From the NCBI GenBank assembly GCA_004565275.1, contig SDOX01000009.1, forward strand, positions 103,746 to 167,745: a DNA stretch of 64,000 nucleotides, read 5' to 3'. The notes beneath the pieces are model-generated. The model worked only from the letters and a program-made list of their open reading frames with translations, ran no database searches and had not been told where the DNA came from. This DNA is from Nannochloropsis salina CCMP1776 (lineage: Eukaryota; Sar; Eustigmatophyceae; Eustigmatales; Monodopsidaceae). This document shows, piece after piece, positions 1 through 37,102 of this stretch; position 1 is the first letter of the stretch, and the number at the start of each line of letters is the position of its first letter. A program made the position numbers and the translations under genes.

Positions 1-1853
1 CTCGATAGCGGCCTCCCCCGCCTGCCTCACACCGACGCGTCCCACGGAGGCACGCCAGGGGGAGCCACTGGCACGGGAAGAGCAGTGCGGGAGAAGGAGC
101 TCCGACCGGTGGTGCTGAGTAAGGAGGAGGAGAGTCTGGTCCTCTGCCAGCTGCACAGCGTCCTCCGCCCCTTCCTTCTCCGGCGCACCAAGTCTCAAGT
201 CCTGTCTCACCTTCCCCAGAAACAAGAACGGCTTCTCGCTTGCCCCCTCTCCGCCTGGCAACGTCGGCTCTACCGCCTCTTGGAAGATCTGTCCCGTGCC
301 CCTCCCTCCGCCCCCATCTACCTCCTTCCCCCGTCCTCCGCCCCTCGTCTCACCACCTCCAACCTCCTCAATCAGCTCCGCAAGGTCTGTAACCACCCCT
401 TCCTTCTCCTCGACTCCCAGGACCTCAGCCGCTTTCTCCCCTCCTCGTCCCCCTCCCTCTCCCCTCTCGCCGCCACCTCCCCTTTCTTCCTCTCCTCGTC
501 TGGGAAGCTCCTCGTCCTCGCCCGCCTCCTGCGCCGGCTCCAGGCCCTGGGTCGTCGACCCCTGATATTTTCCCAGTTCACCACATCCCTCGACCTGATC
601 GAGGACTTCTTTATCCATCGGGGGTTGCCCTATTGCCGTCTCGACGGTCGGACGCCAGCTGACGCCCGCGCGGAGATAATCGCCGAATTCAACGGCGGAA
701 GACGTGCCTCGTTCACGGCCTTTTTGATTACCACCCGGGCGGGTGGGGTCGGTCTCAACCTCCAGGCAGGCGCCGACACGGTGATTATCTTCGACAGTGA
801 TTGGAACCCGCAGAGCGACGCGCAAGCCATGGCGCGGTGCCACCGGATCGGCCAGACCGAGGAGGTGCTTGTGCTCAGGCTCGTGTCGGTGGGGAAGGGA
901 GGAGGAGGGAAGACGGTGGAGGAAAATTTGCTGGAGGTGGCGCGGGCCAAGATGAAGAAGGAGGCGACCGTGATTGGGCGGGGGAGGTTTACGTGGGGGG
1001 AGGCAGGAAGGGGTGGAGGTGAAGAGGAGGGGCGTGATGCAAGATGCCATGGCCAGAAGACAGAAGGGAGCGGGAAAGGGTCTGGAAGTGGAGAGGGAGC
1101 CCAGGCATGGACCGAAGGGGAATGTAAGGATATGAGCGAAGGGGAGAGGCACAGGGGGGAAAGCCTTGCGAAAGACGTAGAGAAGCTCGCGTTTCCGTCA
1201 CACCTGCTGAGCAAGCAGGCGCTGGACGTGGCGTGCGCGCGAAACGAGCACGAGCTGGAACGATTGCAAGCGATCGATGGAGAGGAGGAGGATAGATTGA
1301 TGGAGGAAAGGGGCATACCCGAGTGGTGGGAGTGGCTAGAAGGGGAAATGAGGAAAGGAGGGGAAGAGGAAGCAGGTACACTGGAAGGGAAGAGGAAGCG
1401 GCAGAGGACTGGGCGATACGTCACGCTGGATGAATCAGCGATGTTCAAACAACAGGTGAAGGAGATGAGGGAGGTAATGGAAGAGGAGACATCGAAGGGG
1501 CAGGAGGGAGAAACAGGCGGAAGGAAGGAGAAGGCAGGTGCAGGGCGGAGGCCTGACAGCCAAACGAGGCGGGTAGAGTCTCAAGACAAAAGAAGCACGG
1601 CCTCACGCACCCAAAACAAAGTAGGAAGACAACAAACGAGGGAGGCAGCTGCAAGATGTACGGCCCTTGATGAGAATAAAAGCCGATTGAAAAGGGTGAG
1701 CGGCAGAATGATTACGGAGGAGGAGGGAGAGAAAGAGGAAATAGACGATGACGTTAATGTGAATGCCGGTGACGAGGAAGACGCAGATAAAACACAACAA
1801 AAAAACGAGGATAAAGGTAGGGCTGAGAAAAAAGAAGAAGAAGAGGAAGAAGA

Positions 1854-1887
<34 letters not shown>

Positions 1888-1998
1888 AATGATGACGATG
1901 ATGAGATATCGGATGACGAGGCTGACAGAATGGATGACAAAGACGACGACAGCTGGGATGAGTGGGACCTTGAAATGTCCGAAAATGAGGAGGACTAA
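1..1998 (+). CDS. SWI/SNF-type (BRM/Snf2) chromatin-remodelling ATPase, C-terminal part
   Basis: The reading frame is open from base 1, so the gene starts upstream; only the second helicase lobe and the tail are here. Visible are RPFLLRRTKSQV, the QLRKVCNHPFLL block, GRRPLIFSQFTTSLDLIEDF, motif V (TTRAGGVGLNL) and motif VI (CHRIGQ), in the usual Snf2-family order. After the helicase comes a segment like the SnAC domain of SWI/SNF ATPases (ARNEHELERLQAID, then GIPEWWEW and a basic KRKRQR). This favours the BRM/Snf2 subfamily over ISWI or CHD. The last 230 residues are charged and end in a long glutamate run followed by an Asp/Glu tail. No bromodomain is seen before the stop. The protein is expected to slide or eject nucleosomes in the nucleus using ATP. 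The family call is firm; the subfamily call rests on the SnAC-like part. Confidence 0.85.
1818..1890 (+). repeat. GAA/GAG microsatellite encoding poly-Glu
   Basis: A run of GAA and GAG codons inside the SWI/SNF gene encodes about 20 consecutive glutamates in its acidic tail. Confidence 0.8.
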
Positions 1999-2229
1999 TT
2001 GGATCAAAAATACAGAAATAGAGTTCCAAAAGGAAATGAGGACCGCACTTGCAGTTAATTAAAAAGCACGTACAAAGAAAAAACAGGGATCGTAGAAAAA
2101 TCCTTCCATTTTGGTCCCCAGATGTTGATCATAACTATAGCTTCATACATCTGTTTTTGATTGGTACACTTGCTTTGGTTGACATGTCCAGTCTTGAGTA
2201 TTTTACACGAGAACCCGTTCATCTTGTCC

Positions 2230-2499
2230 TTATTTGGTCCCCCATTGCATGGCATTCTGCCCTGTGAACGCCGCATCCCGTTGTGCCTGTTCTCTTCGTT
2301 CCGTCTGCTCCTTCAATCGCTCGCCTCCACCCCCTTGCTTAAAATTGTTTCTCCGGGCCTCTGCAGCCTCTGCGCGGCGTGCCCGGAGTGCTTCCTTCTC
2401 GTGTGCACTTAGGACGTATGGGCTAGCGCCATGGTCTCCATGTGTGTCACCGGCAGATGCAGTCGTGCCACCGCTTGCACAACAACAAAGGGCTCCCAT
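2230..2499 (-). CDS. SVIP-like small p97/VCP-interacting protein (89 aa)
   Basis: This is an 89-residue single-exon reading frame. It begins MGALCCC, a pattern suited to N-myristoylation on Gly2 and palmitoylation of the next cysteines, so membrane anchoring is likely. At about residues 39-49 it carries RARRAEAAEAR, an exact match to the VCP-interacting motif RX5AAX2R. The rest is a charged helix ending in a short tail with a conserved-looking Trp (AMQWGTK). Animal SVIP has the same build: about 77 residues, a lipidated N-terminus, a VIM helix and a C-terminal Trp. SVIP binds the p97 N-domain on ER and lysosome membranes and damps ERAD. The gene lies tail-to-tail with the SWI/SNF gene and head-to-head with the FYVE gene. 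Homology to SVIP is inferred from architecture and motif. Confidence 0.65.
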   Translation of the reverse strand: MGALCCCASGGTTASAGDTHGDHGASPYVLSAHEKEALRARRAEAAEARRNNFKQGGGGERLKEQTERREQAQRDAAFTGQNAMQWGTK

Positions 2500-3059
2500 C
2501 CTATTTGATATAATAGGAGTATGTATGAGTGTGTTGGGTTTTTCTTCGGCTAGTAAACGGATATCACAGAGACCGCGATCTACAGGATTGCAAGCTGACT
2601 CCAGTTTATTGGTTTATCATTTTAAACGCCAGCGCAAGAACCCTATTCCAGCCTCAAAGTCAAACGAGGCTCTTATCTAAGCTGGCATGTACGTCCAAGG
2701 CCTGCCTGGCATACTTTCCAGGTGCTGGGTCGTAGTAAATTAGGCATGACCGTTGCAACGACTGACGAACATGCCAACGCTTCTGCTTCAACTTGCGAAA
2801 GATTCGCTCTCTGTGCAGCTCCGTAAACCAATAGAAACCCAGCAAAAGTTACTGTGGCTCTCATCAGGACGGTATTGTTTGAAATGTATATATCGATTTG
2901 AATTGAGTGCCAGAAGGCTACTCCATACTAGGGATTTGGTGGAGCAGCAACGCACGATACTCACTCCATTCTGACCTCCCTGCTTCACGTGCCAGGCATC
3001 GAACAGGCCCGGAGCCGTAGCGTACCCTACTTTGTGGGTTTCTCGCTTCCCAGCAACGT
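2500..3059. other. Intergenic spacer between divergent genes
   Basis: About 560 bp separate the 5' ends of the SVIP-like gene (minus) and the FYVE gene (plus). No convincing coding exon is seen. Promoters for both genes should lie here, but no specific element can be named. Confidence 0.5.
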
Positions 3060-4221
3060 ATGGAGGAGCATGATTTCTTTGACAAACTGCTTCAGTCGAA
3101 TTTGCCCGTGCCTGAATTTCCGACACAGGGAAAGCCGTGGGTACAAGACGATATCCAGCAGTACTTATTTATCTTCAGTAGCTGTATCGACAAATGACAC
3201 TGTGGTCCCGCTTCAAAGAATAAAAAAAGGTGGTGGCGCGGCTCTCACTACGTCAATCTCTGACTTGGCGGCCGTACCAGTGCATCCTGCTATTGCGTTG
3301 CCAAGATATGTGATGGACGAGGAGGTGGAGGTACGTGCTGGTGTCTTGGGGCACAACTCTCGATTTTACATGCTTCATCAGCTCATCTCGATGGTTCAAT
3401 CTATGATCCATGTAATGTGGTACGAATATTAACTTTGTACTTCTATTAGTTTTATGTTTCCGACAATCCTCACGTTGTCGTCATCATTGCCTTTCTCCTA
3501 GCGGTGCTTCGCATGCGCGGTCCCCTTTGATTTCGCGCAGAGACGTCATCACTGTCGGCGTTGCCGCAACATTTTCTGTGCGGCTTGTACGTCCCGAGAG
3601 CGGCCCGTCCTGCTCTACAGGCTGTCCGATCCTGTCCGTGTGTGTCTTCGCTGCGGAAACGAAGTAGGAAAGGAGAATGAATTTGTGGACCGGCATTTAA
3701 AGGGCTTGACGGAAGGGTTGGAAGTGACGGTGACACGGGGTGTCAGCGCCGTGCTTGGCCGACGACAGCCAGTCTCTCTCATTCTCTCTGCAGATCTGAA
3801 GACACTCCAAGTCGTCGATCTTCCTTCGCTTCCCGCCTACCACGACGCCTCCCGCCCTCCGTCTTCGCTCGACTGCCCACGCATCCTTATGCACTTCCCC
3901 CTGGTGGACATTGGTGGGGTCTCGGAGGAAGGCCCACTCTCCTTCCTAATCTTAACCAGCACGGGCGTTCGACGCAAATTTGAAACGAGCGGACCGGGGC
4001 AACGGCAGGCATGGGTGGCGGCGATACGGGAAGCGGCGCGGCTTCTCCCTTCGATGGCAGGGTTGCGAAAGAGAATCGAGGAGGAACGGATCCAACGTGC
4101 GACACAAGAGAGGATGGCGATGGCGGAGCGACATGAAAAGGATGCGTTGCTAGCGAAGAAAAGGGAGAAGGCGGCCCTCCGGCATGCCATCGCAGACAAG
4201 TACGGTCTGGCGAGAAGATGA
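3060..4221 (+). CDS. FYVE zinc finger plus PH-like domain protein
   Basis: The FYVE domain is clear. An exon ending at 3330 supplies YVMDEEVE (the WxxD position, here with Tyr). A GTACGT donor follows, and the next exon starts at 3502 after TTTCTCCTAG. It gives CFAC, the basic RRHHCRRC motif, FCAAC and the closing RVCLRC, so all eight zinc-binding Cys/His positions appear filled. Downstream, about 100 residues look like a PH domain ending in the Trp-containing helix QRQAWVAAIREA, followed by a charged coiled coil to the stop. FYVE domains bind PI3P on early endosomes, so an endosomal trafficking role is expected; Rab5 lies 9 kb away. The 5' end is unsettled. The ATG at 3060 opens a plausible exon (MEEHDFFDKLLQ), and a small intron must lie between about 3141 and 3281 to restore phase. 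GTAGCT at 3178 joined to CCAG at 3280 would work. Confidence 0.7.
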
Positions 4222-5048
4222 ATCACAGGCTTCCAAGTCTCCCGTATGCCGAGGGATCTGGACAGAAAAAAAGCAACTTGTGGGCTGCTACAGCGGTATG
4301 AAGTGAAGGGTAGATGTGAGACAAATGGGGACCGTATGTGCAGCCGTGTAATGATGGATGGGGTGACAGAGTGAGGACGTGGGGGGGTCAGGGGGCAGGG
4401 AAGGGGCAGGCAAACGAGGCGGGATTAGATGCTTGTCGTGTCCCCAAAGTATGTACAAACGACCGAACCGAACCTTAAAGAAAGTGCTAAAGTAAGACTG
4501 GAACCGTGTTCGTGGTTGAGAAACGGGCTCGCGAGACGCTCCTTGAGTGCTCCTCCCCCTGTTTCGGGAGGCTGGTGGCGGCCCATTTAATTCTCCACTT
4601 CTCCGCCTTCCCCTTTGCCTCTATTTTGCCCTAGTAACGTCAAAACCGCGCTACTTTCTCTCCACTCAATCATCATCACCACCGTGCTTCCCCTTCCCTT
4701 GAACATCCGATGTCTTTCTGCCTTCCTGTGGCCTGCCGTATGCTCTGAGTTTCTTCTTTCTCTCAAGCCGCAACGCCATCCGCCCAGCCTGTGTCCACCT
4801 CTTCCCATAGCCACACGCATTCAAGCCGGACAACTTACTTTCCCCTTGACCCCTTTCCACCCCTTCCCCTCCATGCCCTTAACGGTTTCTCACAGCCAGA
4901 CACTCTGTCAAGCTTCCTCGCGCCCAACATTCCCCCTTCGCGCCCCAGGCGTCTCCCGCAGGTGAGTTCACCACCTGCCTGGCCTGTGTCTGCCAACCAT
5001 CCCCCCTGTCCCTCTCCCCCGCCCTCTTGCCGTCGTCAATCTTCTCCT
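4222..5048. other. Convergent 3' spacer
   Basis: The 3' ends of the FYVE gene and the first STI1 gene face each other across about 830 bp. It is pyrimidine-rich toward the right. No gene is supported. Confidence 0.5.
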
Positions 5049-19128: not shown

Positions 19129-22100
19129 ATGGCCAGTGGTATGCTTTCTAGCGACCCGCAACTAGGGCAGGCCCCCCGCCGCCGTCGTCGGGTCCTGCTG
19201 ATTTCTCTTGGTGCAATATGCCTCATCGTGGTCGGTGCTCTAGCCATTGGCTTCGGAATCAAGGGAAAGGACAACGATAAGCACACATCAACGCATGGCA
19301 ATAAGCACGGGCCCGCGACAGAAGCGGTTTCTTCAATGGCTGACACGAAGAACACGATCGTCCCCTCACAACCCGAATCAGGTACGTGTGAAAGTGTAAA
19401 ATTGAGGAAAGACCAGAATTGAAATTAAAAATTGATTTGATACTCGGAAGTACATGGGTATCTCCTGGATCCATTTGAAATTTCCAATGAAGCTACCTAT
19501 TGCAGATCATTGCTGAGTTCGGACAACTGTGATTCTATGACGTACTGCTATTTAAAGCTGAGGCGTGTGCGTTCCCTGATTTTGAGCAAGATCATTCGTT
19601 CTGCTCTCTGGTTTGACATGCTGCACATGATTTCTATTTAATCTACCACAGCGCCGGCTACTGTTGTGGAGCCCGTGAAAGCTCCTGTTTCCGAGTCCAA
19701 GCCTAGTTCTCCCGCGACTACCACAAAGGTAGACGAGTCTGACAAGATCCTGACGTTTGGGGACGGAGAAAGGAACCCCCTCGGTCCATTGTTCGGTGCC
19801 CTTCCTGGCGCTGCGGCTATCAATGGTGCTTTCAATACCCTGGCTGCTAGCGCTGCCAATCTGGCTGGCTTGCAAGTCTGCTATCCTCAGAACGGTGAGG
19901 AGCTGAAAGGGATGACGGAAAGCGGGAGCTCCTGTAGCGTGATCATTTTGAAGAAGGGGTCGTCCGACAAGTACACTTTACCCTCGACTGTAATTGTAAC
20001 CTCTCGTAAGATCGTCTTGGGTCATCCCATTGATCTTCCGCAGATCCATCCTGACAAGGGAGTGTACCGCCTTTTCGAGGTGAAGCCAGGCGGCAGCTTG
20101 GATATTCGTTTCGTGAGCCTTTTTCGCCCGTCTCCACGGAAGGTGGACGACAATCTCAGTGTTATCGTTGCGGGCGTTGCGCTTGTGGAGCTTGGGGGCT
20201 ATATGCGGGGCACAGCTTGTATTTTCCGACAGCCCGCGCAGACATTTGAAGCTTTCGTGAAAACGCTCGAAAACCCCTTTGCACGCAAACGCATTGTAGG
20301 TGGTTTCGTCTTGGTGCTGGGGGGAACTTTCTTTTGCTATGGATGTCAAGCAGTTCGCTGGGCACCTTACGGGTCGCCTAATGTCAATGTTGTCCAGATC
20401 GGACGGGATTATCTGGTCATGGCCGGCTCGAATGTGTGCATCGGATGCTATCACGTTGCCTATTCACCCTACAATTCTGCAATCAGTGTGGGAAATGCCA
20501 TGGGAGTCTTTGGTGGCGTGAATATCCGAATTGGAGGCGGGACGATCGGATCCTCCGTGTTAAAAGGACAGTTCGGTGAGTAAAACAAAGTGCCTTGTCT
20601 ATATGATATCGCTTACATACATGTCAATGGAGGAATGCAACAACTCATTATATTTACGTCATCTAGGTGCTGGACAAAATATATTCGTCGGCGGCGGAGT
20701 GATCGTGAATGTGGGTCACCAGCAGCAGACTGCTTTCGTCTGCCTCATTCGTGCAGGATATGCCATGACTGCTGTCGGATCAGGAGTAATGGTGCTTATT
20801 GCAGAGCTGGAGAACCGCACTTGGGGCGTTGCCGGTATCAACGGTGCTGGTCAGGTGTACGCGAATGGAGCTGGCGTCCTCGATAAGACCGGAGGAGAGG
20901 TTGTGAACAGCGCAAGCTCTGTCTACCAGGCCATTGTGGGTGGAAGCGCTTATCTCGGCACTGGAGACATGAACATTGTGGGCGAGCAGTATGCCCGTGT
21001 CACGGTGACCCTGGATCAGAATGGCGTGGGCCTGACCTTCTTCAATGGCGCGGGACAGACAAGTTTGATTTATGTACCAAGTTTCGTGTCGGCAGTTGTC
21101 CGTTCGCAGAAGATTCTCGGCGCTGAGGTGAGATATGACAAATCTTCGTCCTTTGGAGAACTTAACAGGAAGATCTATATTGTTTTGTACTCATATATTT
21201 GTCTATATCGCCTCAGGCATTCTTAGGCGCTGGTTTCTTTACGAACGTCAACAATACACGCTGGACCATTCAAGTGGTGAATGCCGGTATTCCCGGATAC
21301 GAGGGGTGGATTGGTCTCGGAGCTGCCCTCTTTGTCCGATCCCGCACTACGGTCAGGCGTGTGGTCAACTTCCGCTTCAATCCTTACGCATGGGTAGTCA
21401 ACGGCCAAGGCGTGCCTGGGTCTGCGTACCGCGACAACAACATTTTCGTCAACAAGGACGGCATTCGCATCAACAAGCCCAACCCGTCGAAGAGCCGTCT
21501 GCTCGCTGCCGTGGACGAGATGGTGGATGGTCATCTCAAGTCCAAGAGGAATATTCAGGGTCTCCTCGCGGGCATCAAGAACTTTGTGGACCGTCCGGCC
21601 GTCGTGATGGCGAACAGCGAGATGGACTCGGCGCGCATGCGTCCTCCCGATCCCCAGATCTTGGCCGGAAAGATCCTGTCCATGGTCACGTCTCTGAAGC
21701 ACAAGCGCCGTCTTCAAGGTCAAGCCGTCGTCAATCCTACGCGCATGATGAACATGTTGGCTGGTCTGTCACCTGGGAAATTTATGGAGGCCTGGAAGGA
21801 GGCTACAGAGGAGACCAACAGGAACCCTCTGCTCAGCTTGGTGCAAGGCAGCAGCCGCGCATTGGCCGAGACCGCAGATCCTACGGCGGTGGACGAGAAC
21901 GGTCGATGGGCCGAGCAGGTATACGTGGGCGGGAAGGAGACCCAATGTGTCATGTGCGGTGTAGGCCCGGGGACTTCGTCTTCTCACTGGTCGACAGGAG
22001 GGAACGACACTGCGACTTGCCACGTGACGGAGGAGTGCACTTCCCGTAGCTCATTCCGAGACATTCTGGCAGCGGCGAAGAATGCGTTGCCGCAAAACGA

Positions 22101-23091
22101 GGAGCTGGTCTTGCCACCTGTGGCGAAGGGCGTCGCGAAGGCCCTTGGCTCGACGGATCTCGCGCCCAAGTACACTCGTCGCATCTTGCAGATGATGGAG
22201 GAGCACCAGGAGGCGAACCCTGGAGCGGAGCCCAAGCTGCCCGACCACAACATCCTGGCATACGAGCTGTCTCTGTACTGCGGTGCTGACGACGCAGACT
22301 GCAGCTTCAACCAGGCGGACATGAAGGCGGCGGTGAAGCTGTTCCTGAGTGAGCAAGCGGACGAGGAGTCGGCATTCAATGTCGCAGCTTCGACGACAGA
22401 TGTGCATCCTGCTCTCATCGACTACGTGAAAGAGGCAAGCAGCGAGTTTTTGGATTCTGTGAAGGCCCCGTCCCACGGCAGCGGATGTGGCAAGGGACTG
22501 AAGTTCAACGTGCAGATGACGGCGCCTGACGCGGCCTCTGTGAAAGACTTGCAGAAGATCTTCGAGGGCGTGGCCAGCAATGGCGAGTCGTTGCTTGATA
22601 CGATCAACAAGTACGACGAGCGTGATGTGCCGTTCTGCGACGTGAAGGTCAGCAAGCCATCGACGCTCTTCTTCCCGTCGATCGATACGGCCCAGGGTCT
22701 CAAGTTCTACCAGGGGCTATACACGGGCAGCGCTCTCGACACAGGGTCTCTGTGGCCCGACGTGACGCTGGTCTCACCGCATGAGGTGGCACCCGTCCAG
22801 CACGCTGTGGTCGGCCAGCCGTACACGGTGCTCTTGGAGGGCTTCGCGATGAAGGGAGACGTGGTCGTGGAGCTCTTCCAGGGCACTGAGAAGAAGGGCG
22901 TGACTGTCGCTACGGTGCCGGGCGGGATCGCCCCTGGCGAGGTGCGGGAGGTGTCGTGGACGGCTCCTGAGCCGCTTGATGGAGTGTCTGGGAACCGAGC
23001 CTACCTGCGCGCGTACCACGCGGGGATGCCGGCGATCTATGCCCAGAGCGAGGTCTTCGACCTGTTGCCGTCATCTGTGCTTGAGCTCTAA
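19129..23091 (+). CDS. Tandem-array copy A: type II membrane, beta-helix protein of unknown function (about 1170 aa)
   Basis: Four exons join in phase: 19129-19381, 19652-20575, 20667-21127 and 21217-23091. The N-terminus has an RRRRR stop-transfer cluster and then one membrane helix (about residues 22-44), so the bulk should face outward or into the lumen. Residues 85-600 are rich in Gly, Val and hydrophobic periods (VIILKKGSS, STVIVTSRKIVLG, then FVGGGVIVNVGHQQQTAFV and AGQVYANGAGVLDKTGGEVV). This reads as a pectate-lyase-like right-handed parallel beta-helix. The 624-residue last exon adds a helical, cysteine-containing part (CVMCGVGPG, CHVTEECTS, LYCGADDADC) and a terminal Ig-like domain (VGQPYTVLLE to YLRAYHAGMPA) resembling Kre9/Knh1-type wall domains. 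No catalytic residues are assigned. A cell-wall or surface role is speculation. Confidence 0.85.
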
Positions 23092-25106
23092 CAGGCCTGC
23101 CCACTGTGAGTATTGCTTTTCGAGATGGGCTGGTCGTTGCAAGCCCTTGGGCCTTTTTCCAGTTTACAATGTATCTTGATCGACTTATGGTATGATACGG
23201 GATATACAAAAGGAGAAGACATGACGAAACCGAAGAGAGGCACCAAAGAAGAAGCATCAAAATTAACAATTTGAACTATATAACGAGAGAAAGAGAGAAA
23301 TTTAGCTCTTAGAAATCATCATTATTAGGAGTATTGACGTACTGGGTGACGGCGGCTGAATTTAATTACGTGGTAAGGGATGATTGTTGCTGAAGACATA
23401 TCTAATATGCTTCCAGGGCGTATAATAGGTAGAATGAAATATCTACTGTTGTTGAGAGAAGTGTTTTAAGGAGGTGAAGGGAATGATTGGCACAGAAGAG
23501 GAGAGTAAAAACCAAAGCAAAGTACCTTTTTGAAAAGCCTTCCTTATGGATATTTTACTCTTGCTTACTGGTCTGGGCAAGTGTCTCTCCGGGCCACACC
23601 ACGCATAGCTGGAAATTTCGTTCTTGAAATTACGATGGACCAGCTTTTCACGCTATCCGGTGTCGACAAGTGATACATGAAAGAATACTCACTTACCTGG
23701 CAATGATTTAGTGATTGCCCGCTTGAGTAGTAACAGATCAATAGCATCGCCTTTCTGTCGAAGGTTGCTTAGCAGTAGTTCCACATTGTCGCTCTTTCTG
23801 CGTTACTTCGACGAGCAAAAGTCTGGGTAAGCAGCTTTTAGATGAGTTTGTGGTGCATAATGGTCAAATACAGTTTACTGCTTCTTTATTGAGGAAACTT
23901 CGCTTTTCACGATTCAACGCGATGACGCGGATCTCATGGACGTCGAAAATGCCAAATAAAATCCTTATGGGCTCAATAAGTGTTGTATTTGTAAAATTGG
24001 TGTGCTTACAATGGATTAAATAAATAGCCTTCCCTTTTCTTGTCGGTGGCGAATTGCGACGCAGGTTGATTAGATGAGTAGTCCGAGCGTAAACAAGAGC
24101 CTTAATGAATTACAGATGGCTCCTCTTAAGTTCGAAGACTATATTCTTTAAAAGGCGACCACTGAGTCTGAGAATGCAAAGAAAAAGGGATACAAAGTCG
24201 AGCTTGAAAAAAGAACAACAAAGTTTTAAAGTTATGTAAAAGTGGGGGGACGGAATGTCTTTCGCGCTTATCCAGACTCCTTCTGGAGACTGCCACGTGC
24301 CTCACGTCCCTTCAACTCATTCAATAGCGTTCACTTTTTAATGAAAGTTTACGCCCACAGCCGCCTTTCGTAGCATGCATACCTTCACTCCCAGCCTCCC
24401 CAAGCTGAACTCCCTCCGCTGCCATGAGTCGCCGTCGTGGACAGCTCAGACTTCTGCGATCAACTTGCAATGAGATACTCACGACAGTTTAAAGGCTATG
24501 TATCATAAAATGCTTCAAACGCACGACGTGTGTCGACGCGATGCCCAGAATATTATTCAAAACCCCCAGTTCGGCATTGAGGTCGCCGTTACTTGACGTT
24601 AGGTCTGGGGTCCGTCCGTTGGAATTCAAACAAATTTCACGAGAGAAATAAACCATTTGGTTCTGGGTCCCGGGAGAGGAGCCCCCGTGAAATTGCATGG
24701 TGTCAAGACTCCTTAAGACGTTTGTTTTTGTCTACTATCATGCTAAATCTTTCAATTGCGCAATTGCCTGAAGTCCGCGGATATTTGGACTTTACGAGTT
24801 GTCTTGGTCCGGGTTAAGCACACGTACATTTCTCTGTTTCCTGACCCGGCTCGGGACATCAAATGGGCCATGACCCGAAGACATGCCGAGCGGCCCTGAT
24901 CTCCATAGGTATTTGGATGCTTGCAAACAGTTTATAATCACACAAATGCATTTGTATCCGCAAAAGACACCTAAGAAAAATCATTTTTGCGGCGCAAATC
25001 GTAGATCCACCGCGGTATTCATTTAATACGCGCGGTATTCAGAGGAGACCGCGCAGAAGCTAACGAATCACAAACAAACAAAAGTATTTTGACAGCTCTT
25101 TGCTCT
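23092..25106. other. Spacer between array copies A and B
   Basis: This 2 kb region is AT-rich and shows no supported gene. Homology between copies does not extend past the stop codon of A. A short block near 24862-24895 matches the upstream region of copy A and may be regulatory or a relic of the duplicated unit. Confidence 0.5.
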
Positions 25107-28100
25107 ATGACTAACGGTGCGCATTCTAGCGACCCGCAACTAGGGCAGGCCCCCCGCCGCCGTCGTCGGGTCCTGCTGATCTCTCTGGGTGCACTATGCC
25201 TTATCGTGGTCGGTGCCCTAGCTATTGGCTTCGGAATCAAGGGCAAGGACAAGCAAAACGAAGCGCCCACTGCAGCAGAGACGGAGCCTATTTCTTCCTT
25301 GGCTGACATTACAGATGCTCTTACTCCCACTGCGCCCGATTCAGGTAAAAGACAGTTTGTCAAGGAGGAGAATATCATTTTTTTTAAAAAGTAGTGTGCT
25401 CCCTGATTTGACACTTTCTGCCAATCAGCCTTTCCCCCCTTTTTTAAGGGTTTCCAAAACCGTGGTCGAAATCCCAAATAGATGACTCAAATAATTAGAA
25501 ACAAAAGGATTCAACACCTTGCATTTTGGAAACCAAATCTTGGGGTCAAGCTGGAAAGAGTGCAAATTCTGACCCCTGACTGATTTGACACTTTTGCACA
25601 TGCTGTTATCAAATTTCAACCCACCACAGCGGCAATTACCGCGCCGGCCACCGTCGTGGAGCCTGTGAAAGCACATGCTTCCACTGCTTCCGAATCCAAG
25701 CCTAGTGATCTTACCATTGCCACGAAAGAAGACGAGTCCGACAAGTTAATATCTTTTGGGGACGGAGAGAGGAACTTCATCGGTCCATTGTTCGGTGCCC
25801 TTCCTGGCGCTGCGGCTGTCAATGGTGCTTTCAATACTCTGGCTGCCAGCGCTGCCAGTCTGGCTGGCTTGCAAGTCTGCTATCCCGAGACTGGCCCAGA
25901 GCTCAAGGCGATGGTGGAAAGCGGGGGCTCATGCAGCGTGGTCATTTTGAAGAAAGGATCCTCCTACATTTACCTTCTGCCGTCTACCGTGATGGTAACC
26001 TCTTCTGTAATTATCTTGGGCCATCCCATCGATCCTCCGCAGATCCATCCTGAGAAAGGAAATTACCGCCTTTTCGACGTTGCGGCCGGGAGTCACATCG
26101 ACATCCGCTTTGTAAGCCTCTTCCGCCCGGCCCTCCGAAACGTGGGAGGCAACCGCTCGCTCATTGTCGCCGGTTGTGTGCTTGTGCGCACAGGAGGGTA
26201 TTTCAGGGGCTCAGGTGTTATTTTCCGACAACAAGCGCAGACATTTGAAGGTTTTGTCAAGGGTCTCATGGACCCCCTCGCACCCAAACGTATCGTAGGC
26301 GGTTTTGTCTTGGTGGCAGGCGGGGCTTTCTTCTGCTATGGCTGTCAAATCATTCGCTGGGCGCCTTATGGTGCACCTAATATTAACCTCGTCGAAGTAG
26401 GACGTGACTATTTGGTGCTGGCCGGTACAAGTGTATGCATCGGTTGCTATCACGTGGCCTGTGCTCCATTCCAATCCTCAGTTAATGTGGGAAATGCTGT
26501 GGGGGTATTAGGTGGCGTGGGAATTCGCGTTGGGGGTGGAACGATCGGTGCTGCCGTATTGAAGGGTCAATTTGGTAAGTCAATTTGATTGCACGCAAAT
26601 ATGATTAGTCGTAGTTAAGCTTGTGCTTGAAACATAGAGAAGACTTTATACTGATGCTGAACGGATCCACAGGGGCGGGAGAGAATCTTTTCGTCGGCGG
26701 GGGAGTCCTCGTCAATGTGGGTCATCAGCAACAGACTGCTTTTGTCTGCCTCAATCGTGCTAACTTTGGTATGACAGCTGTCGGATCAGGAGTAATGGTG
26801 CTTATTGCAGAGCTCGAAAATCGTGCTTGGGGCGTTGCTGCCATCACTGGTGCTGGTCAGGTGTACGCGAATGGAGCTGGCGTCCTTGACAAGACCGGAG
26901 GAGAGGTTGTAAATTGTGCAATCTCTTTTTTCCAGGCCCTCGCCGGTGGAAGTGTGTATCTCGGCACTGGAGACATGAACATGGTGGGCGAGCAATTTGC
27001 CCGTGTCTCGGTGACCCTGGATCAGAATGGTGTCGGGATGACCTTCTTCAACGGTGCGGGACAGACAAGTTTGATTTATGTGCCAAGTTTCGTGGCGGCA
27101 GTTGTCCGTTCGCAGAAGATTCTAGGCGCTGAGGTATGTACGAAGTAAATGAAGTTGAGCATATAGACAAAGCGACATCGTCCAAAAACACTCTTTTCTT
27201 CGAACCAAACAGGGATTCCTGGGCGCTGGTTTCTTCACGAACGTCAACAATACACGCTGGACCATTCAAGTGGTGAATGCCGGTATTCCCGGATACGAAG
27301 GGTGGGTTGGTCTCGGAGCTGCCCTCTTTGTCCGATCCCGCACTACGGTCAGGCGTGTGGTCAACTTCCGCTTCAATCCTTACGCATGGGTAGTCAACGG
27401 CCAAGGCGTGCCTGGGTCTGCGTACCGCGACAACAACATTTTCGTCAACAAGGACGGCATTCGCATCAACAAGCCCAACCCGTCGAAGAGCCGTCTGCTC
27501 GCTGCCGTGGACGAGATGGTGGATGGTCATCTCAAGTCCAAGAGGAGTACCCAGGGTCTCCTCGCGGGCATCAAGAACTTTGTGGACCGTCCGGCCATCG
27601 TGATGGCGAACAGCGAGATGGACTCGGCGCGCATGCGTCCTCCCGATCCCCAGATCTTGGCCGGAAAGATCCTGTCCATGGTCACGTCTCTGAAGCACAA
27701 GCGCCGTCTTCAAGGTCAAGCCGTCGTCAATCCTACGCGCATGATGAACATGTTGGCTGGTCTGTCCCCAGCAAAGCTTATGGAGGCCTGGAAGGAGGCT
27801 ACAGAGGAGACCAACAGGAACCCTCTGCTCAGCTTGGTGCAAGGCAGCAGCCGCGCATTGGCCGAGACCGCAGATCCTACGGCGGTGGACGAGAACGGTC
27901 GATGGGCCGAGCAGGTGTACGTGGGCGGGAAGGAGACCCAATGTGTCATGTGCAGTGTGGGCCCGGGGCCTTCGTCTTCTCACTGGTCGACAGGAGGGAA
28001 CGACACTGCGACTTGCCACGTGACGGAGGAGTGCACTTCCCGTAGCTCATTCCGAGACATTCTGGCAGCGGCGAAGAATGCGTTGCCGCAAAACGAGGAG

Positions 28101-29087
28101 CTGGTCTTGCCACCTGTGGCGAAGGGCGTCGCGAAGGCCCTTGGCTCGACGGATCTCGCGCCCAAGTACACTCGTCGCATCTTGCAGATGATGGAGGAGC
28201 ACCAGGAGGCGAACCCTGGAGCGGAGCCCAAGCTGCCCGACCACAACATCCTGGCATACGAGCTGTCTCTGTACTGCGGTGCTGACGACGCAGACTGCAG
28301 CTTCAACCAGGCGGACATGAAGGCGGCGGTGAAGCTGTTCCTGAGTGAGCAAGCGGACGAGGAGTCGGCATTCAATGTCGCAGCTTCGACGACAGATGTG
28401 CATCCTGCTCTCATCGACTACGTGAAAGAGGCAAGCAGCGAGTTTTTGGATTCTGTGAAGGCCCCGTCCCACGGCAGCGGATGTGGCAAGGGACTGAAGT
28501 TCAACGTGCAGATGACGGCGCCTGACGCGGCCTCTGTGAAAGACTTGCAGAAGATCTTCGAGGGCGTGGCCAGCAATGGCGAGTCGTTGCTTGATACGAT
28601 CAACAAGTACGACGAGCGTGATGTGCCGTTCTGCGACGTGAAGGTCAGCAAGCCATCGACGCTCTTCTTCCCGTCGATCGATACGGCCCAGGGTCTCAAG
28701 TTCTACCAGGGGCTATACACGGGCAGCGCTCTCGACACAGGGTCTCTGTGGCCCGACGTGACGCTGGTCTCACCGCATGAGGTGGCACCCGTCCAGCACG
28801 CTGTGGTCGGCCAGCCGTACACGGTGCTCTTGGAGAACTTTGCGATGAAGGGAGACGTGGTCGTGGAGCTCTTCCAGGGCACTGAGAAGAAGGGCGTGAC
28901 TGTCGCTACGGTGCCGGGCGGGATCGCCCCTGGCGAGGTGCGGGAGGTGTCGTGGACGGCTCCTGAGCCGCTTGATGGAGTGTCTGGGAACCGAGCCTAC
29001 CTGCGCGCGTACCACGCGGGCATGCCGGCGATCTACTCCGAGAGCGACCTGTTTGACTTGTTGCCGTCGTCTGTGCTGGAAAACTAA
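25107..29087 (+). CDS. Tandem-array copy B: type II membrane, beta-helix protein of unknown function (about 1172 aa)
   Basis: Exons are 25107-25344, 25630-26574, 26673-27133 and 27213-29087, with the same intron phases as copy A. An in-frame ATG at 25089 is possible, but MTNGAHSSDPQ at 25107 aligns with the start of copy A (MASGMLSSDPQ). The anchor segment, including RRRRR, is almost the same as in A. Exon 2 differs from A by many substitutions and small indels, while exon 4 is nearly identical to A and C with no indels (1875 nt in each). Intron 3 is an almost exact match to intron 3 of copy C and unrelated to that of A. The open frame is intact throughout, so the copy looks functional. Confidence 0.85.
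27134..27212 (+). other. Intron 3 of array copy B, near-identical to copy C
   Basis: This 79-nt intron (GTATGT to AACCAAACAG) matches the intron at 32855-32933 of copy C at all but about one position. Intron 3 of copy A (21128-21216) is different in length and sequence. Confidence 0.9.
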
Positions 29088-30934
29088 GCGATCTGCCGTC
29101 AAGATTGTAGTTGTTTTGAGTAAGATTGTGCAATGTCGTATATGAATCAGAGGTAAGGATCTGTTTTGAAAAGAGCATGGCTTGGGGCTCCTTTTTTTAT
29201 TTCACAGGCGGGCTTAGGAATGTATGGCAATGGAAAGTCTGTATACGTTCAAGGTCGACAATTGCGATGTATTGAGTGAAAACACCCTGGCCTTTTTTAA
29301 ATTTCTCATGTTCTGCATTCCGTATCCACCTCTTCCTCACAGACACCATTATAATACTGGGTTGTCAAAACAGAAAGGGATCGAGGGGGAAAGTGTCTTA
29401 AGAAATAGGACAATAGTTCAGAGCGCTGTTCAATTTTTGGCAGGCCCCATGAGCAAAGTAAAAGTATAAGTGAGAATTATGTTGGAGGAAACAGTAAGAA
29501 GTACAAAAGCAAAAAAGCAAGAGACGGTGGACAAGAGCTAGATTATTTTCGAGATGTTTGTATTGTGACTTATCATTGCTAGCGCTTTACTGAGGCAATA
29601 ATTTCATTCAGGTCGGTCTTCTGCCAAATGACGATGTTGTATTGATGCCTTATTTTGCCTTGAACACAACCATTCCTCCTCGCGAGTCCCCTTCGAAACT
29701 TTTTTGTTTATCTCTGTAAATTACCTGACTTCAGCATGAACAAGCTTGTTCAGGTATACCCATTCATGTTTATATGGTAAGGTAACTTTGTTTTGTATAC
29801 ACAAGCGCTTCGTAAAATAATGGTAGGATCGAGTTTCTCCTTACTATATCTCTCTAGTACAACTTTTTCGTGTCTTTCATGGCCTGAAGGTCACCGCTAC
29901 GTAGGGGTTGGAAAAGATGCGCAAGTAACGGTCTTTTAGAAGAGGCTGACTGAAATATGGCTGTTTTTAAACACAAGGTCACTTCGCGTATCCGATCCTC
30001 ATATGTTTTTTGACATGGCTTATAAAATTATGGATCTGCTCAACAGACATCAATCGTTTAACATATTGCTTGCTATCCACACATAACCTTTCATCAAATC
30101 ATACATAGGTGATTATTGACCAATGTTTCCTCCGTACCTTTCCACGATACACGTTTGGCATTAAGCAGGACATATACATCCCATACTTCTTTGTGACCCA
30201 ACTTAGCAAAGTGCTGCGGGGGAATGTGGTATATTTCTCCATCCGGGGAAATGTATGGCATGCTTATCCAAGACTTCGCTGCAAGGCAAAGTCTACCAAA
30301 AGGCAGAGCTTCATTTTGCCATCGAAATGCATAGCTTGCTTACACTACGAAAGTTTTATTATGATGGTTATTCTTCACGTTGAAGTCTGAAAGATTTAAT
30401 CTGCTCTGTCGAAAAGAGACCGACTTTGACTTTCTTGGACATGCTCGCCATAAGTCGCCGCTCTGGGTCATGTCCGAGAGTCTATTTTCCCAATGCCGCC
30501 GTTGATTCGATCGGCCAGCCATTCACCAGTTTGTGTATAAAATATTATTCTCCAGTTCATATAGAATGGGAAGACAGAAGCTTGTTGTAGGGTAGGCTTA
30601 ATCACAATCGGTGTCGAATAGCAAAACTCCGAGGTTAGCGCGGGGAGGTTTTTAAAATTCCGTTGCACAGCTTCTTCTCTCGTGGGCGTTGTTTTTCCAT
30701 GCCTCATACGTCTTTCCGTGCTTCCTCGTAAGTCCTTCTTAAATGGTCACTCACGCCAGACAAAAATTGCCCTGATACTCCTTTAGCTTATCTGGGGGCT
30801 TGCTTACATTCGCGAAGCGACTGTTTGAAATGACCTTTGGAGAGAAGCACCACTTCGTTAATGATATATACACAATCTTTTTACAGGGACGATCCGACGA
30901 TTCGATTCTTGATAAGCAGAGAGATTTCTCGCTC
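29088..30934. other. Spacer between array copies B and C
   Basis: This is 1.85 kb of AT-rich DNA without a supported gene. It shares no obvious homology with the A-B spacer apart from general composition, so the duplicated unit appears to be the gene, not the gene plus a long flank. Confidence 0.5.
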
Positions 30935-33900
30935 ATGACAAGCATATCGACAGCAAGAGGAACCCAAGAAGAGCAAAGCTGCCATCACTGTTGTAATTAT
31001 CTGCTCATTATCTTCCTCAGTGCCCTCGTACTCCTTGCAGTGGTCGGCGCGTTCGCCATTGACTTTACAGTCTATGGCCGAGATGAAAAAGATTTTAAGT
31101 CCAAAAATGTGGTACCAGGGATCTATTTAAGTATTAATGACACCACAATGGCCTTTTTCTCCGTTACTCAGCGAGTTGGTAAGTGGTGGTTTGGCGAGAG
31201 TATACTCATTTCTCTTTCCCTCGATGTCATCTGATTCAGCCAGAGTTTGCGTTATTATTTCGAGGATAGCAACTATGTTTATTGTCTATTGATAGCTTGT
31301 TCATTCAAAGTGAACCAAAATAAACTGGGCTTTTTGTAACCGGAATCACACCGTAGTGTTTTTTCTACTCTTTGCCCCAAAATATATTTATGGTGTGAGG
31401 ACGTAAAAGGCTCCCCGCTAGACAGACATGAAGATAAATCGCCAGCGAAGACCATTTCTACTACGTCGAACGCCTCTGACATAGCTTTACACATCAATGG
31501 AACTACTTACAGAGCGGCAGGATCTCTTATCGGTACTCTTCCTAATGTCTCTGCTGCAAAGCACGCCTTCAATGCCCTTGCCCTTCGTGCTGCCAGCCTG
31601 ACCGGCCTGATAGTATGTCATGCTGTGAGTGCGTCCGATTTAGAGGCAATGGTGAGGGCCACAAGCAAGTGCACCGTCATCATTCTAACCAAGAGGCCCT
31701 TCCAACAGTACGTTATCCAAGATACCATGGTTGTGACTACCCGCAAAATCGTTCTAGGTCATCCCATAGATCTTCCTGAGATTAAGGGCGAGAATGGTGT
31801 CAACAGAATATTCGAAATACAGGCGGGGGGCAACCTGGATATCCGCTTTGTGAGCCTCTTCCGCGCGTCTCCCCGAAAATTGAGTCCCATTTTAAGTGTG
31901 ATAGTTGGGGGTATTGTGCTCGTGCAGCTTGAAGGTTATTTTCGCGGAACGGCTATCATCTTTCGAGATCCGCCACAAACATTCGAAACCTTTATAAACG
32001 ATTTAGGCTCGTCTTTGCAGCGTCGGCGTGCGTTTGGCGGACACGTTATGGTGCTTGGTGGGATTTTTTCCTGCTACGGTTGTCAAGTGCTACGCTGGTA
32101 TCCTTATGGCCTGCCCATTTTTAATGTGGCACAGGTTGGCCGAGACTTTCTAGCCATGGCGGGGTCCTGTGTTACTGTAGGCGTCTATCATGTCTTTTAC
32201 GCTCCCTATCTGTCATCCATCAACGTTGGAAATGCTGTGGCAGTTCTAGGTGGTACGCATATTCGCATCGGCGGTGGGACAATAGGATCTGCCGTGCTTA
32301 TTGGACAGCTCGGTAAGAAATGCAATAAAGAGCATTTGGGAGGATACATCTACAAGAAACACTTACTTACCATTTATACGATCCTTACCATAGGAGCGGG
32401 ACAAAACTTTTTTGTTGGTGGAGGAGTCCTCGTCAATGTCGGTCACCAGCAGCAGAGCGCCTTTGTCTGCTTATTTCGTGCAGGTTTCGGAATGAGCTCC
32501 GTAGGGGCAGGAGTCTTCAGTCACATAGCGGAGCTGGAAAATCGCGCCTGGGGCGTTGCTGCTATATTAGGTGCTGGTCAAGTGTACGCGAATGGAGCTG
32601 GTGTTTTTGACAAGACCGGAGGAGAGGTTGTAAATTGTGCAGTCTCTATTTTGCAAGCCTTGGCGGGCGGAAGCTCTTATCTTGGCACTGGAGACATGAA
32701 CATTGTGGGCGAGCAATTTGCCCGTGTCTCGGTGACCCTGGATCAGAATGGTGTCGGGATGACCTTCTTCAACGGTGCGGGACAGACAAGTTTGATTTAT
32801 GTGCCAAGTTTCGTGGCGGCAGTTATCCGTTCGCAGAAGATTCTAGGCGCTGAGGTATGTACAAAGTAAATGAAGTTGAGCATATAGACAAAGCGACATC
32901 GTCCAAAAACACTCTTTTCTTCGAACCAAACAGGGATTCCTGGGCGCTGGTTTCTTCACGAACGTCAACAATACACGCTGGACCATTCAAGTGGTGAATG
33001 CCGGTATTCCCGGATACGAAGGGTGGGTTGGTCTCGGAGCTGCCCTCTTTGTCCGATCCCGCACTACGGTCAGGCGTGTGGTCAACTTCCGCTTCAATCC
33101 TTACGCATGGGTAGTCAACGGCCAAGGCGTGCCTGGGTCTGCGTACCGCGACAACAACATTTTCGTCAACAAGGACGGCATTCGCATCAACAAGCCCAAC
33201 CCGTCGAAGAGCCGTCTGCTCGCTGCCGTGGACGAGATGGTGGATGGTCATCTCAAGTCCAAGAGGAGTACCCAGGGTCTCCTCGCGGGCATCAAGAACT
33301 TTGTGGACCGTCCGGCCATCGTGATGGCGAACAGCGAGATGGACTCGGCGCGCATGCGTCCTCCCGATCCCCAGATCTTGGCCGGAAAGATCCTGTCCAT
33401 GGTCACGTCTCTGAAGCACAAGCGCCGTCTTCAAGGTCAAGCCGTCGTCAATCCTACGCGCATGATGAACATGTTGGCTGGTCTGTCCCCAGCAAAGCTT
33501 ATGGAGGCCTGGAAGGAGGCTACAGAGGAGACCAACAGGAACCCTCTGCTCAGCTTGGTGCAAGGCAGCAGCCGCGCATTGGCCGAGACCGCAGATCCTA
33601 CGGCGGTGGACGAGAACGGTCGATGGGCCGAGCAGGTGTACGTGGGCGGGAAGGAGACCCAATGTGTCATGTGCAGTGTGGGCCCGGGGCCTTCGTCTTC
33701 TCACTGGTCGACAGGAGGGAACGACACTGCGACTTGCCACGTGACGGAGGAGTGCACTTCCCGTAGCTCATTCCGAGACATTCTGGCAGCGGCGAAGAAT
33801 GCGTTGCCGCAAAACGAGGAGCTGGTCTTGCCACCTGTGGCGAAGGGCGTCGCGAAGGCCCTTGGCTCGACGGATCTCGCGCCCAAGTACACTCGTCGCA

Positions 33901-34808
33901 TCTTGCAGATGATGGAGGAGCACCAGGAGGCGAACCCTGGAGCGGAGCCCAAGCTGCCCGACCACAACATCCTGGCATACGAGCTGTCTCTGTACTGCGG
34001 TGCTGACGACGCAGACTGCAGCTTCAACCAGGCGGACATGAAGGCGGCGGTGAAGCTGTTCCTGAGTGAGCAAGCGGACGAGGAGTCGGCATTCAATGTC
34101 GCAGCTTCGACGACAGATGTGCATCCTGCTCTCATCGACTACGTGAAAGAGGCAAGCAGCGAGTTTTTGGATTCTGTGAAGGCCCCGTCCCACGGCAGCG
34201 GATGTGGCAAGGGACTGAAGTTCAACGTGCAGATGACGGCGCCTGACGCGGCCTCTGTGAAAGACTTGCAGAAGATCTTCGAGGGCGTGGCCAGCAATGG
34301 CGAGTCGTTGCTTGATACGATCAACAAGTACGACGAGCGTGATGTGCCGTTCTGCGACGTGAAGGTCAGCAAGCCATCGACGCTCTTCTTCCCGTCGATC
34401 GATACAGCTCAAGGAATCAAGTTCTACCAGGGGTTGTTTACGGGCGACGTCCTGGACAAGGGGTCTCTGTGGCCCGACGTGACGCTGGTCTCACCGCATG
34501 AGGTGGCACCCGTCCAGCACGCTGTGGTCGGCCAGCCGTACACGGTGCTCTTGGAGAACTTTGCGATGAAGGGAGACGTGGTCGTGGAGCTCTTCCAGGG
34601 CACTGAGAAGAAGGGCGTGACTGTCGCTACGGTGCCGGGCGGGATCGCCCCTGGCGAGGTGCGGGAGGTGTCGTGGACGGCTCCTGAGCCGCTTGATGGA
34701 GTGTCTGGGAACCGAGCCTACCTGCGCGCGTACCACGCGGGCATGCCGGCGATCTACTCCGAGAGCGACCTGTTTGACTTGTTGCCATCGTCTGTGCGAG
34801 CAATTTAA
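30935..34808 (+). CDS. Tandem-array copy C: divergent N-terminus, shared C-terminus
   Basis: Exons are 30935-31178, about 31422 (or 31410) to 32312, 32394-32854 and 32934-34808. The second-exon acceptor is uncertain because both positions keep phase. The N-terminus is unlike A and B. It has a Cys-rich CHHCC before the membrane helix (YLLIIFLSALVLLAVVGAFA) and lacks the RRRRR cluster, so palmitoylation may replace the basic anchor. Exon 2 is the most divergent, yet keeps the same order of blocks (IVCHA, KIVLGHPIDLPEI, IRFVSLFRASPRK, CYGCQVLRWYPYG). From about 32680 to the stop it is nearly identical to B, apart from a C-specific patch at about 34404-34462 and the last four residues (VRAI). All exons are open, so it is not an obvious pseudogene. 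Confidence 0.8.
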
Positions 34809-35538: not shown

Positions 35539-37102
35539 TTACTCACCAGCCGAAACGGTTCCCACCAATTCCTTCTCTAAATCTTCGGCCTCGACCAAAA
35601 CCACCCCAAGGCCTGTGACCGGATCTTGTGTTACCGCAACTTTGGTCCCTATGCCCGGCGCCTCCCCAGCAAACTTCACATCCACCCCGCTTGCTTTCCA
35701 ATCCTCTGCTCCTCCCTTCCCTACTACGTCTGTCCCAAGAATAGCCAGCTTATCCACTACCCCTCCAAGACGGACACCGGCCTTGGCCTCTTTTTTTGGG
35801 AGAGGCAATAGCAATATCCCGAAGCCGTCCTCATTGAAAGCGAGAAATCGGCTGCCCTTCGGCTGCTTTGGCTCATAGATCGACTCTGGGATTCGTGAGA
35901 GCGGATAGGGCTGTTCTTGCATACCCAGGGAATTGACATAAAAGTGAGAGGCTTTCTGCACGTCGGGGACATTCAGGGCTAGCATCATGATGGGGTCTCG
36001 CCGCATCCCGACTATGACTTGATGGCGTAACCCGCCAGGAGAATCCACAAGGACCCATCCGTATGCAGATTTTATCTTGCCCCCTGCTTCCGCCAATTTG
36101 GAGAGACGAAGTGAAGGAACGGCCAACTGGAGGTAGGCAGCGGCATTTCCAGGGTCAAGCACAGGTGTGTCACCCTGAATGATGAGCGAAGGACGATGAA
36201 AGAGGGAAAGAGAAGGGATTGATTTGATCATCATACGCTGGGACGTGTCTGAAACAAGTGGTCTATCCAATCTTCATTGTCTTGCCATGAATGGTCTGTA
36301 ATTTGACCGCACTCTGGGTTGTGCTCAGTCTCGTCGTCTTCAAGCTAACATAACCCCCCCTCCCCCCGGGGAGATAAACGCGCCTACTCACCTCTTCCGT
36401 TTTGAGAACCTCGTTCAGTTCCAAAGCGAAATGGGCCCCGTACATTGAAAAGGAAGAGACACCAGGATACCAGCCCTTTGGCGTTTTCAATGTCTCAGGT
36501 CCATACCCAACGAATGTACTATTTTGCCCCCCTACAAGTCGGGATCGCAGCACCTGCATTTGCAGGCCATCGATGTAGAAGGATAAGGCTGCAGCCATAT
36601 CTGGAACATTGATAACAAGATGCTGCGTGAAGCGTGGGTTAGACGCCCATTCTGGCAGTTCGCCAATCGCATTTGCAGCATTCGGACGTGACGGGAAAGC
36701 ACCCGTGATACTGCTACCCAATACTCCGGCAGTGGTGGCTACTGTCACACGCTGTAAAAGTCCCTGCCGATCGATTAATTCAACTTTGCGGCGATTTGGC
36801 ATACCGTCTTCACCGTTCTCGCTATCTATGTTGGGAAACAGTATGATTTGTCAAGTTACGCAGGTGCCATGAAGTGGCACTCAGGAGGTTGATATACCGG
36901 CTCTAGCGTCAATCTTTGACATCTGTTAAAAACAAATAACATTGAAACGAAGACTCTCACCTTCCACAATATCACTCTTCATTGATATTGTTGCACTCCT
37001 TGTCATCACCCTGGAAGGATAGAAAAATGACTCCGTCATAGGATACATGCAACTGACTGCAACAATTAGGGCCGCCGACCAGGCGTTCCTACCTCCCGGC
37101 AT
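35539..37102 (-). CDS. Plastid-targeted two-domain VOC/glyoxalase-fold protein
   Basis: Exons are 36961-37102, 36392-36825 and about 35539-36174, and the first two joins keep phase. Exon 1 alone encodes a signal peptide (WSAALIVAVSC) followed by TESFFYPSRVMTRS, the Phe-led motif of bipartite plastid presequences in algae with red-type secondary plastids. A second hydrophobic, twin-Arg-preceded stretch (RRK, then VTVATTAGVLGSS) may route it to the thylakoid lumen. Two vicinal-oxygen-chelate domains follow. The first starts TQHLVINVPDMAAALSFYID and the second starts MLALNVPDVQKASHFYVNSL; each is a beta-alpha-beta module of about 120 residues. Classic glyoxalase I metal ligands cannot be assigned with certainty, so the reaction is unknown. 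A GTGAGT just before the stop (35541-35546) may be a true donor leading to one more short exon. Confidence 0.75.

Follow-up and report, generated by a model that had tools for sequence, protein, structure and literature searches.

The window analyzed here is a stretch of 64,000 nucleotides from the genome of the eustigmatophyte alga Nannochloropsis salina CCMP1776 (contig SDOX01000009.1, positions 103,746 to 167,745 of the forward strand), and it contains no Ns. Between positions 19129 and 34808 it carries three direct, same-strand copies of one gene, here called c1, c2 and c3. The model of each copy has four exons separated by three introns, all GT-AG and in phases 1,1,0, and keeps an open frame throughout:

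19129..23091, plus strand: copy 1 (c1), spliced model, exons 19129-19381, 19652-20575, 20667-21127 and 21217-23091
25107..29087, plus strand: copy 2 (c2), spliced model, exons 25107-25344, 25630-26574, 26673-27133 and 27213-29087
30935..34808, plus strand: copy 3 (c3), spliced model, exons 30935-31178, 31422-32312, 32394-32854 and 32934-34808

The predicted proteins have 1170, 1172 and 1156 amino acids (aa), respectively, and the lengths of exon 3 (461 nt) and exon 4 (1875 nt) are constant across the copies. An earlier reading of the window from its sequence only had described three direct copies of a protein of about 1.17 kaa, with four exons and the same intron phases, and the spliced models confirm this description together with its coordinates. 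The least certain parts of the models are exon 1 of c3, at its start, and the acceptor of c3 intron 1; this exon is 28-31% identical to those of c1 and c2.

The sequence-only reading had also proposed local amplification; as a recent event this is not supported, given the divergence of most of the gene and the dispersal of the family. Identity between copies is at background in the flanks (38-43% over 300 bases upstream, 35-45% over 300 bases downstream) and in introns 1 and 2 (38-52%). Exon 2 nucleotide identity is 75% for c1-c2, 59% for c1-c3 and 57% for c2-c3, and the synonymous divergence (dS) of this exon is 0.87 between c1 and c2 and saturated or undefined with c3. For c1 and c2 the nonsynonymous divergence (dN) of 0.188 against a dS of 0.866 gives a dN/dS of about 0.2, pointing to purifying selection on exon 2. 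In exon 3, dS between copies is 0.44-0.68. Searches of the source genome (26,503,672 bases in 103 contigs) with exons 4, 2 and 3 gave matches at 22 loci, a lower bound, made up of the three window copies, two neighbour pairs and 15 others; the weakest are one on contig 98, matched at E 0.002-0.003 only, and one on contig 26, matched over 90 residues. We consequently take the three copies to be old tandem members of a dispersed family, of which only the 3' part is recent.

This 3' part is the last exon, which is homogenised among the copies. Exon 4 is 97-99% identical in nucleotides between copies (dS 0.03-0.08), and intron 3 agrees between c2 and c3 at 78/79 positions but is different in c1. 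The longest identical runs within exon 4 are 866 nt for c1-c2, 715 nt for c1-c3 and 1472 nt for c2-c3, and random placements of the exon 4 differences reached the observed runs in 0/100000 trials for each pair. Two tracts read from the lists of differing bases have a conversion-like appearance:

27143..28684, plus strand: c2 tract identical to c3 32864-34405, 1542 nt, of which 70 belong to intron 3
21974..22839, plus strand: c1 tract identical to c2 27970-28835, 866 nt

The remaining exon 4 differences are clustered; c3, for example, retains 16 of them within 55 nt. The identity of the copies collapses immediately 3' of the stop codon. At the protein level, exon 2 is 49-72% and exon 4 is 96-99% identical among the window copies. 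Compared with a relative from Nannochloropsis oceanica, P0001, exon 2 is 49-52% and exon 4 is 52% identical; exon 4 is thus as diverged as exon 2 across species, so that its near-identity within the window is not due to slow evolution. The large conserved last exon of the sequence-only reading is therefore conserved among the copies, but its 52-55% identity to the N. oceanica proteins shows homogenisation. Trees agree with this picture: in the exon 2 region long branches part c1-c3 (0.36 for c3, 0.34 for the stem of c1+c2), whereas in the exon 4 region (c2 549-1020) the three are parted by 0-0.013. Support elsewhere in the exon 2 tree is weak, with one of seven inner branches starred and long branches flagged.

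Gene conversion would be the mechanism that best fits these tracts. The process does not extend to the whole family, because P0001 and P0002 of N. oceanica have diverged evenly (85, 88 and 89% identity in exons 2, 3 and 4). These two proteins are closest to each other in the anchor exon (70/74 residues), and the window copies are closest in the last exon. An artefact of assembly or polishing could also produce three near-identical last exons, as repeats of about 1.5 kb can collapse or cross-polish during assembly. Against such an origin, copy-specific islands persist inside exon 4, among them the 16 differences of c3, the 3' ends differ, and exons 1-2, introns 1-2 and the flanks are clearly distinct among the copies. 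The sequence-only reading had named an assembly artefact as the finding that would undo it; the copies themselves are distinct in their first halves, and for the last exons we hold such an artefact to be very unlikely.

The proteins begin with a putative membrane anchor, which is the strongest hydrophobic stretch of each copy (residues 22-45, Kyte-Doolittle (KD) hydropathy 2.9-3.0) and the only strong one, as had been read from the sequence at first:

19192..19260, plus strand: c1 N-terminal membrane anchor, residues about 22-44, after RRRRR, hydropathy peak 2.94
25170..25238, plus strand: c2 N-terminal membrane anchor, after RRRRR, hydropathy peak 2.91
30998..31066, plus strand: c3 N-terminal membrane anchor, hydropathy peak 2.98

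In c1 and c2 the anchor has the type II layout, a strong N-terminal hydrophobic stretch with the positive side first, and because the arginine run precedes it the topology of these two copies is probably N-in, C-out. A hydrophobic stretch with KD ≥1.8 lies near the start of 13 of the 15 family N-termini examined, and the other two are probably open reading frames (ORFs) that lack the first exon. A multi-pass membrane protein was considered and rejected for the window copies: they have no 19-residue window above 1.6 inside the interval c2 335-585, and the second hydrophobic windows are much weaker than the anchor, at residue 299 of c1 (KD 1.61) and residue 303 of c2 (KD 1.65). Several paralogues have numerous 19-residue hydrophobic windows, up to 51 in L021, and might be multi-pass.

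A linker separates the anchor from a conserved N-cap and a long repeat. Conservation is expressed below as counts of rows of a family alignment, rows that are not independent and include some near-duplicates.

25878..25934, plus strand: c2 N-cap cysteine pair C163-C181, conserved in 19/19 and 22/23 rows
26289..27350, plus strand: c2 solenoid-like repeat of about ten rungs of 30 residues (residues about 300-594), with glycine anchors; introns 2 and 3 fall within it

The N-cap has the family pattern R-x-F-x-V-x-x-G-G-x-L-D-x-R-F-V. The repeat is detected as identities at lag 30, which number 42, 42 and 39 in c1, c2 and c3 against shuffle means of 19-20 (standard deviation about 4), and which were matched by 0/2000 shuffles for each copy; the beta-helix-like middle proposed earlier corresponds to this solenoid-like period. 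Glycines at c2 positions 345, 375, 405, 434, 464, 494, 524, 554 and 583 are kept in 26/26 or 27/27 rows. The number of rungs is constant, with at most three inserted residues and one deleted over c2 337-583 in 24 of 28 rows, whereas the other four (P0004, P0014, L029, L034) probably lack part of the protein or include intron read-through. The rungs are also poor in charge. Over c2 335-585, 7.6-8.8% of the residues are charged in the three copies, and the range is 2.1-8.8% in 26/27 rows (P0004, whose sequence contains intron read-through, has 12.1%); for comparison, no 250-aa window of seven neighbouring ORFs falls below 15.2%. The C-terminal parts are 21-32% charged in 24/27 rows, the others being L021 (52%) and the short stubs P0004 (5%) and P0014 (14%).

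Beyond the repeat lies a head, encoded by the last exon, in which a further cysteine, C972, is conserved in 17/17 rows. It carries two features, for the second of which the confidence of the model is expressed as the predicted local distance difference test (pLDDT):

27942..28034, plus strand: c2 four-cysteine module C792-C795-C816-C822 (CxxC...C...C), conserved in 22-23 of 24-25 rows
28794..29078, plus strand: c2 C-terminal beta-rich end, a possible immunoglobulin (Ig)/macroglobulin-like sandwich (weak), strands with block pLDDT about 45-70 and sub-threshold profile matches

The last 95 residues are modelled as strands with modest confidence. No significant profile match to an alpha-2-macroglobulin-type C-terminal domain was found in the Pfam and PDB sequence scans, the best being Pfam MG2 at E 0.053 in one paralogue, below the cut-off, and TEP1 at E 0.7 in the PDB scan. 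The low-confidence strands and these sub-threshold matches give weak hints of a C-terminal beta-sandwich.

As the sequence-only reading had anticipated in recognising no named family, none matched above its curated cut-off in the Pfam, NCBIfam and PHROGs scans, and the PDB sequence scans gave no match at a convincing E-value. Weak matches to MG2, PHBC_N, DUF7521, DHU1_N, Adeno_E1B_55K, ZrgA, His_biosynth and Sigma70_ner, to MerP, CU044_5270, TIGR00269 and phrog_24176, and in the PDB to a Brix-domain protein, a turret protein, TEP1 and others were treated as no more than chance similarity or hints. A match to a well-described enzyme family, which that reading had said would refute it, was looked for in Pfam, NCBIfam and the PDB, and no convincing one was found. 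A beta-helix or beta-solenoid fold of the middle is suggested by the 30-residue glycine ladder, by strands in low-confidence models and by the name given in the source to the N. oceanica relative P0002, "pectin lyase fold virulence factor" (P0001 is called hypothetical).

This name, together with the N-terminal anchor layout, would also fit a membrane-anchored enzyme of the secretory pathway, a lyase, epimerase or hydrolase of pectin-lyase-like fold with a Golgi-type anchor, that modifies wall polysaccharide. The N-cap and repeat pattern resemble a right-handed beta-helix, and the conserved residues R226, D237 and R239 near the N-cap might belong to an active site. However, no pectin-lyase-like family was among the eight Pfam families that matched 25 family rows at E up to 1, nor did any match the nine window exons, or nine proteins at E 0.1, in scans in which the HMMER filters drop most weak matches. 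Furthermore, no catalytic-type acidic or basic cluster conserved on the rungs was found in the family alignment over c2 245-600, where no D, E, K, R, H, N or Q column reaches 80% conservation; C318 and T469 pass this level and R505 reaches 21/27. The rungs of pectin-lyase-like enzymes have 22-25 residues, and the 30 of the algal proteins are longer. We regard an enzyme of this kind as unlikely.

Relatives outside the window have the same plan with variations. The three protein searches gave 3, 4 and 9 proteins, 14 of them different; each scored about 8000 candidates, so that a wider occurrence is possible. Four of the 14 (P0005, P0006, P0007 and P0009) belong to the source genome, from which they were read exactly, and the other ten comprise three from N. 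oceanica and seven further proteins. No relative was confirmed in viral contigs and none was found in bacterial or archaeal genomes by peptide-pattern search. A family limited to the lineage, which the sequence-only reading had named as a finding that would support it, is plausible on the relatives found within this limit of candidates scored. The N. oceanica proteins P0001 and P0002 share anchor, linker, N-cap, rungs and four-cysteine head in the same order; their identity to c1-c3 is 48-52% in exon 2 and 52-55% in exon 4, they are partial at the C-terminus, and as a pair they do not show exon 4 homogenisation. No description of the family was found in the literature, judged by titles and abstract starts among the matches listed, and it is so far unnamed.

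The neighbour pairs of the source genome, spaced 10.6 kb on contig 42 and 5.7 kb on contig 14, show near-identity along about 5 kb and about 4 kb, respectively. In the first, L018/L019 (G000:C42:709000-727500), the identity over about 5 kb has sharp borders, which suggests a recent duplication or whole-gene conversion; the second, L032/L033 (G000:C14:92500-105500), has His/Asp-rich runs whose lengths differ between the two. In L021 (G000:C93:488500-495500, ORF 859-4602, minus strand), on the contig of the three window copies, a long Asp-rich tandem repeat with units like DDDVEDDDVEVEHGAA lies behind the solenoid. L028 (G000:C1:994500-1001000, ORF 1443-4193, plus strand) has MDMGDMDMG Met/Asp-rich repeats before the solenoid and His/Met/Asp repeats (HMNDDM) after it, both types resembling metal-binding tracts.

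Repeats of this kind, rich in Asp, His/Asp or Met/His and placed next to the solenoid in some paralogues, raise the question of whether the family consists of metal-binding surface proteins, presenting repeats or cysteines outside the membrane. The conserved four-cysteine module and weak matches to ZrgA in two rows (best E 0.013) and to MerP in P0006 (E 0.014) point the same way. Since c1, c2 and c3 have no such repeats and every metal-family match is below the cut-off, this is the least probable of the functions that we weighed.

The reading that we favour, and to which we give an even chance of being right, is a non-enzymatic structural or adhesive scaffold of the cell surface or wall, anchored at its N-terminus. 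In its favour are the anchor, the cysteines, the fixed charge-poor repeat, the lack of a conserved catalytic-type cluster, the purifying selection on exon 2 and a parallel with Candida wall proteins, set out below; the surface or wall location, the absence of catalysis and the binding role are what we infer from these. In such a protein the anchor would sit in the membrane, followed by the linker, the N-cap and a beta-solenoid whose roughly ten rungs form the glycine ladder, and then by a distal head made of the four-cysteine module, alpha/beta segments and the beta-rich end. The anchor would hold the membrane, the charge-poor solenoid could pack on itself or on a wall polymer, and the head would bind a constant partner, while gene conversion would keep the last exon, which encodes the end of the solenoid and the whole head, near-identical as the anchor, the linker and most of the solenoid diverge. 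A near-constant head would suit one constant binding partner, yet conversion can be neutral.

The same combination of a near-constant exon 4 and an exon 2 of 49-72% aa identity, in a large family with neighbour pairs, could instead describe a diversified recognition set for self, virus or bacterium, in which conversion keeps the head constant and the solenoid varies. We think this very unlikely, as exon 2 of c1 and c2 is under purifying selection and the variable part would be membrane-proximal with the constant part distal.

Several observations weigh against the scaffold that we favour. An N-terminal anchor also fits Golgi enzymes, and the anchor of c3 has no preceding arginine run. R226, D237 and R239 are conserved in 18-22 of 22-23 rows, so that an active site outside the rungs might exist in this region. 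The sequence-only reading had looked for a confident solenoid plus Ig-like fold, and the AlphaFold2 models do not provide it: they are poor (mean pLDDT 40.7 and 31.6), and the second has strands to about residue 440 with later rungs unstructured. With the exon 4 model, Foldseek gave no match at E 0.001, the best being a laccase at E 0.013. The hydrophobic moment of the window copies is slightly higher for the alpha type (0.234-0.241) than for the beta type (0.208-0.227), and relatives in other lineages may have been missed by the protein searches.

The closest parallel is with the Awp1-type wall proteins of Candida glabrata. According to the excerpted text of PMC8746771, these form a large surface family with a repeated-rung beta-helix, a fold that we only predict for the algal proteins, followed by a C-terminal beta-rich part; Awp1 and Awp3b resemble pectate lyases without a detected catalytic set, and in that excerpt they bound neither carbohydrate nor calcium. 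The algal proteins differ in their N-terminal membrane anchor, 30-residue rungs, four-cysteine module and much larger C-terminal part, no Awp chain of the PDB came up in the sequence scans of algal proteins, and the Awp structures are solved whereas the algal fold is predicted only. Awp1-type wall adhesins are characterised by C-terminal attachment of the glycosylphosphatidylinositol (GPI) type. The three window copies have their strongest hydrophobic stretches at the N-terminus, and by eye their last residues show no hydrophobic character, no GPI predictor having been applied.

Downstream of the third copy, on the minus strand between window positions 35542 and 36850, two open frames match the Pfam family Glyoxalase PF00903, the 36266-36850 frame above the cut-off (E 0.00012) and the 35542-36273 frame below it (E 0.0096).

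Excerpts of PMC8955213 and PMC10305002 describe the wall of Nannochloropsis as an algaenan layer covering one of cellulose, which struts connect with the plasma membrane; no strut protein is named in these excerpts. We may speculate, while thinking it quite unlikely, that a charge-poor solenoid family with 30-residue rungs of fixed number, arisen in the Nannochloropsis lineage, is a partner of the algaenan wall: its hydrophobic faces would bind the hydrocarbon polymer or act as its template, its anchored members would be the struts, and its head would be held constant by conversion. If confirmed by long reads, the three copies, with a homogenised last exon and old, diverged first halves, would be a clear example from nature of concerted evolution restricted to one gene segment. 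Nannochloropsis, an oil alga, is difficult to extract because of its tough wall, and this 22-locus family of anchored, solenoid-like proteins provides candidate genes for tagging and knockout.

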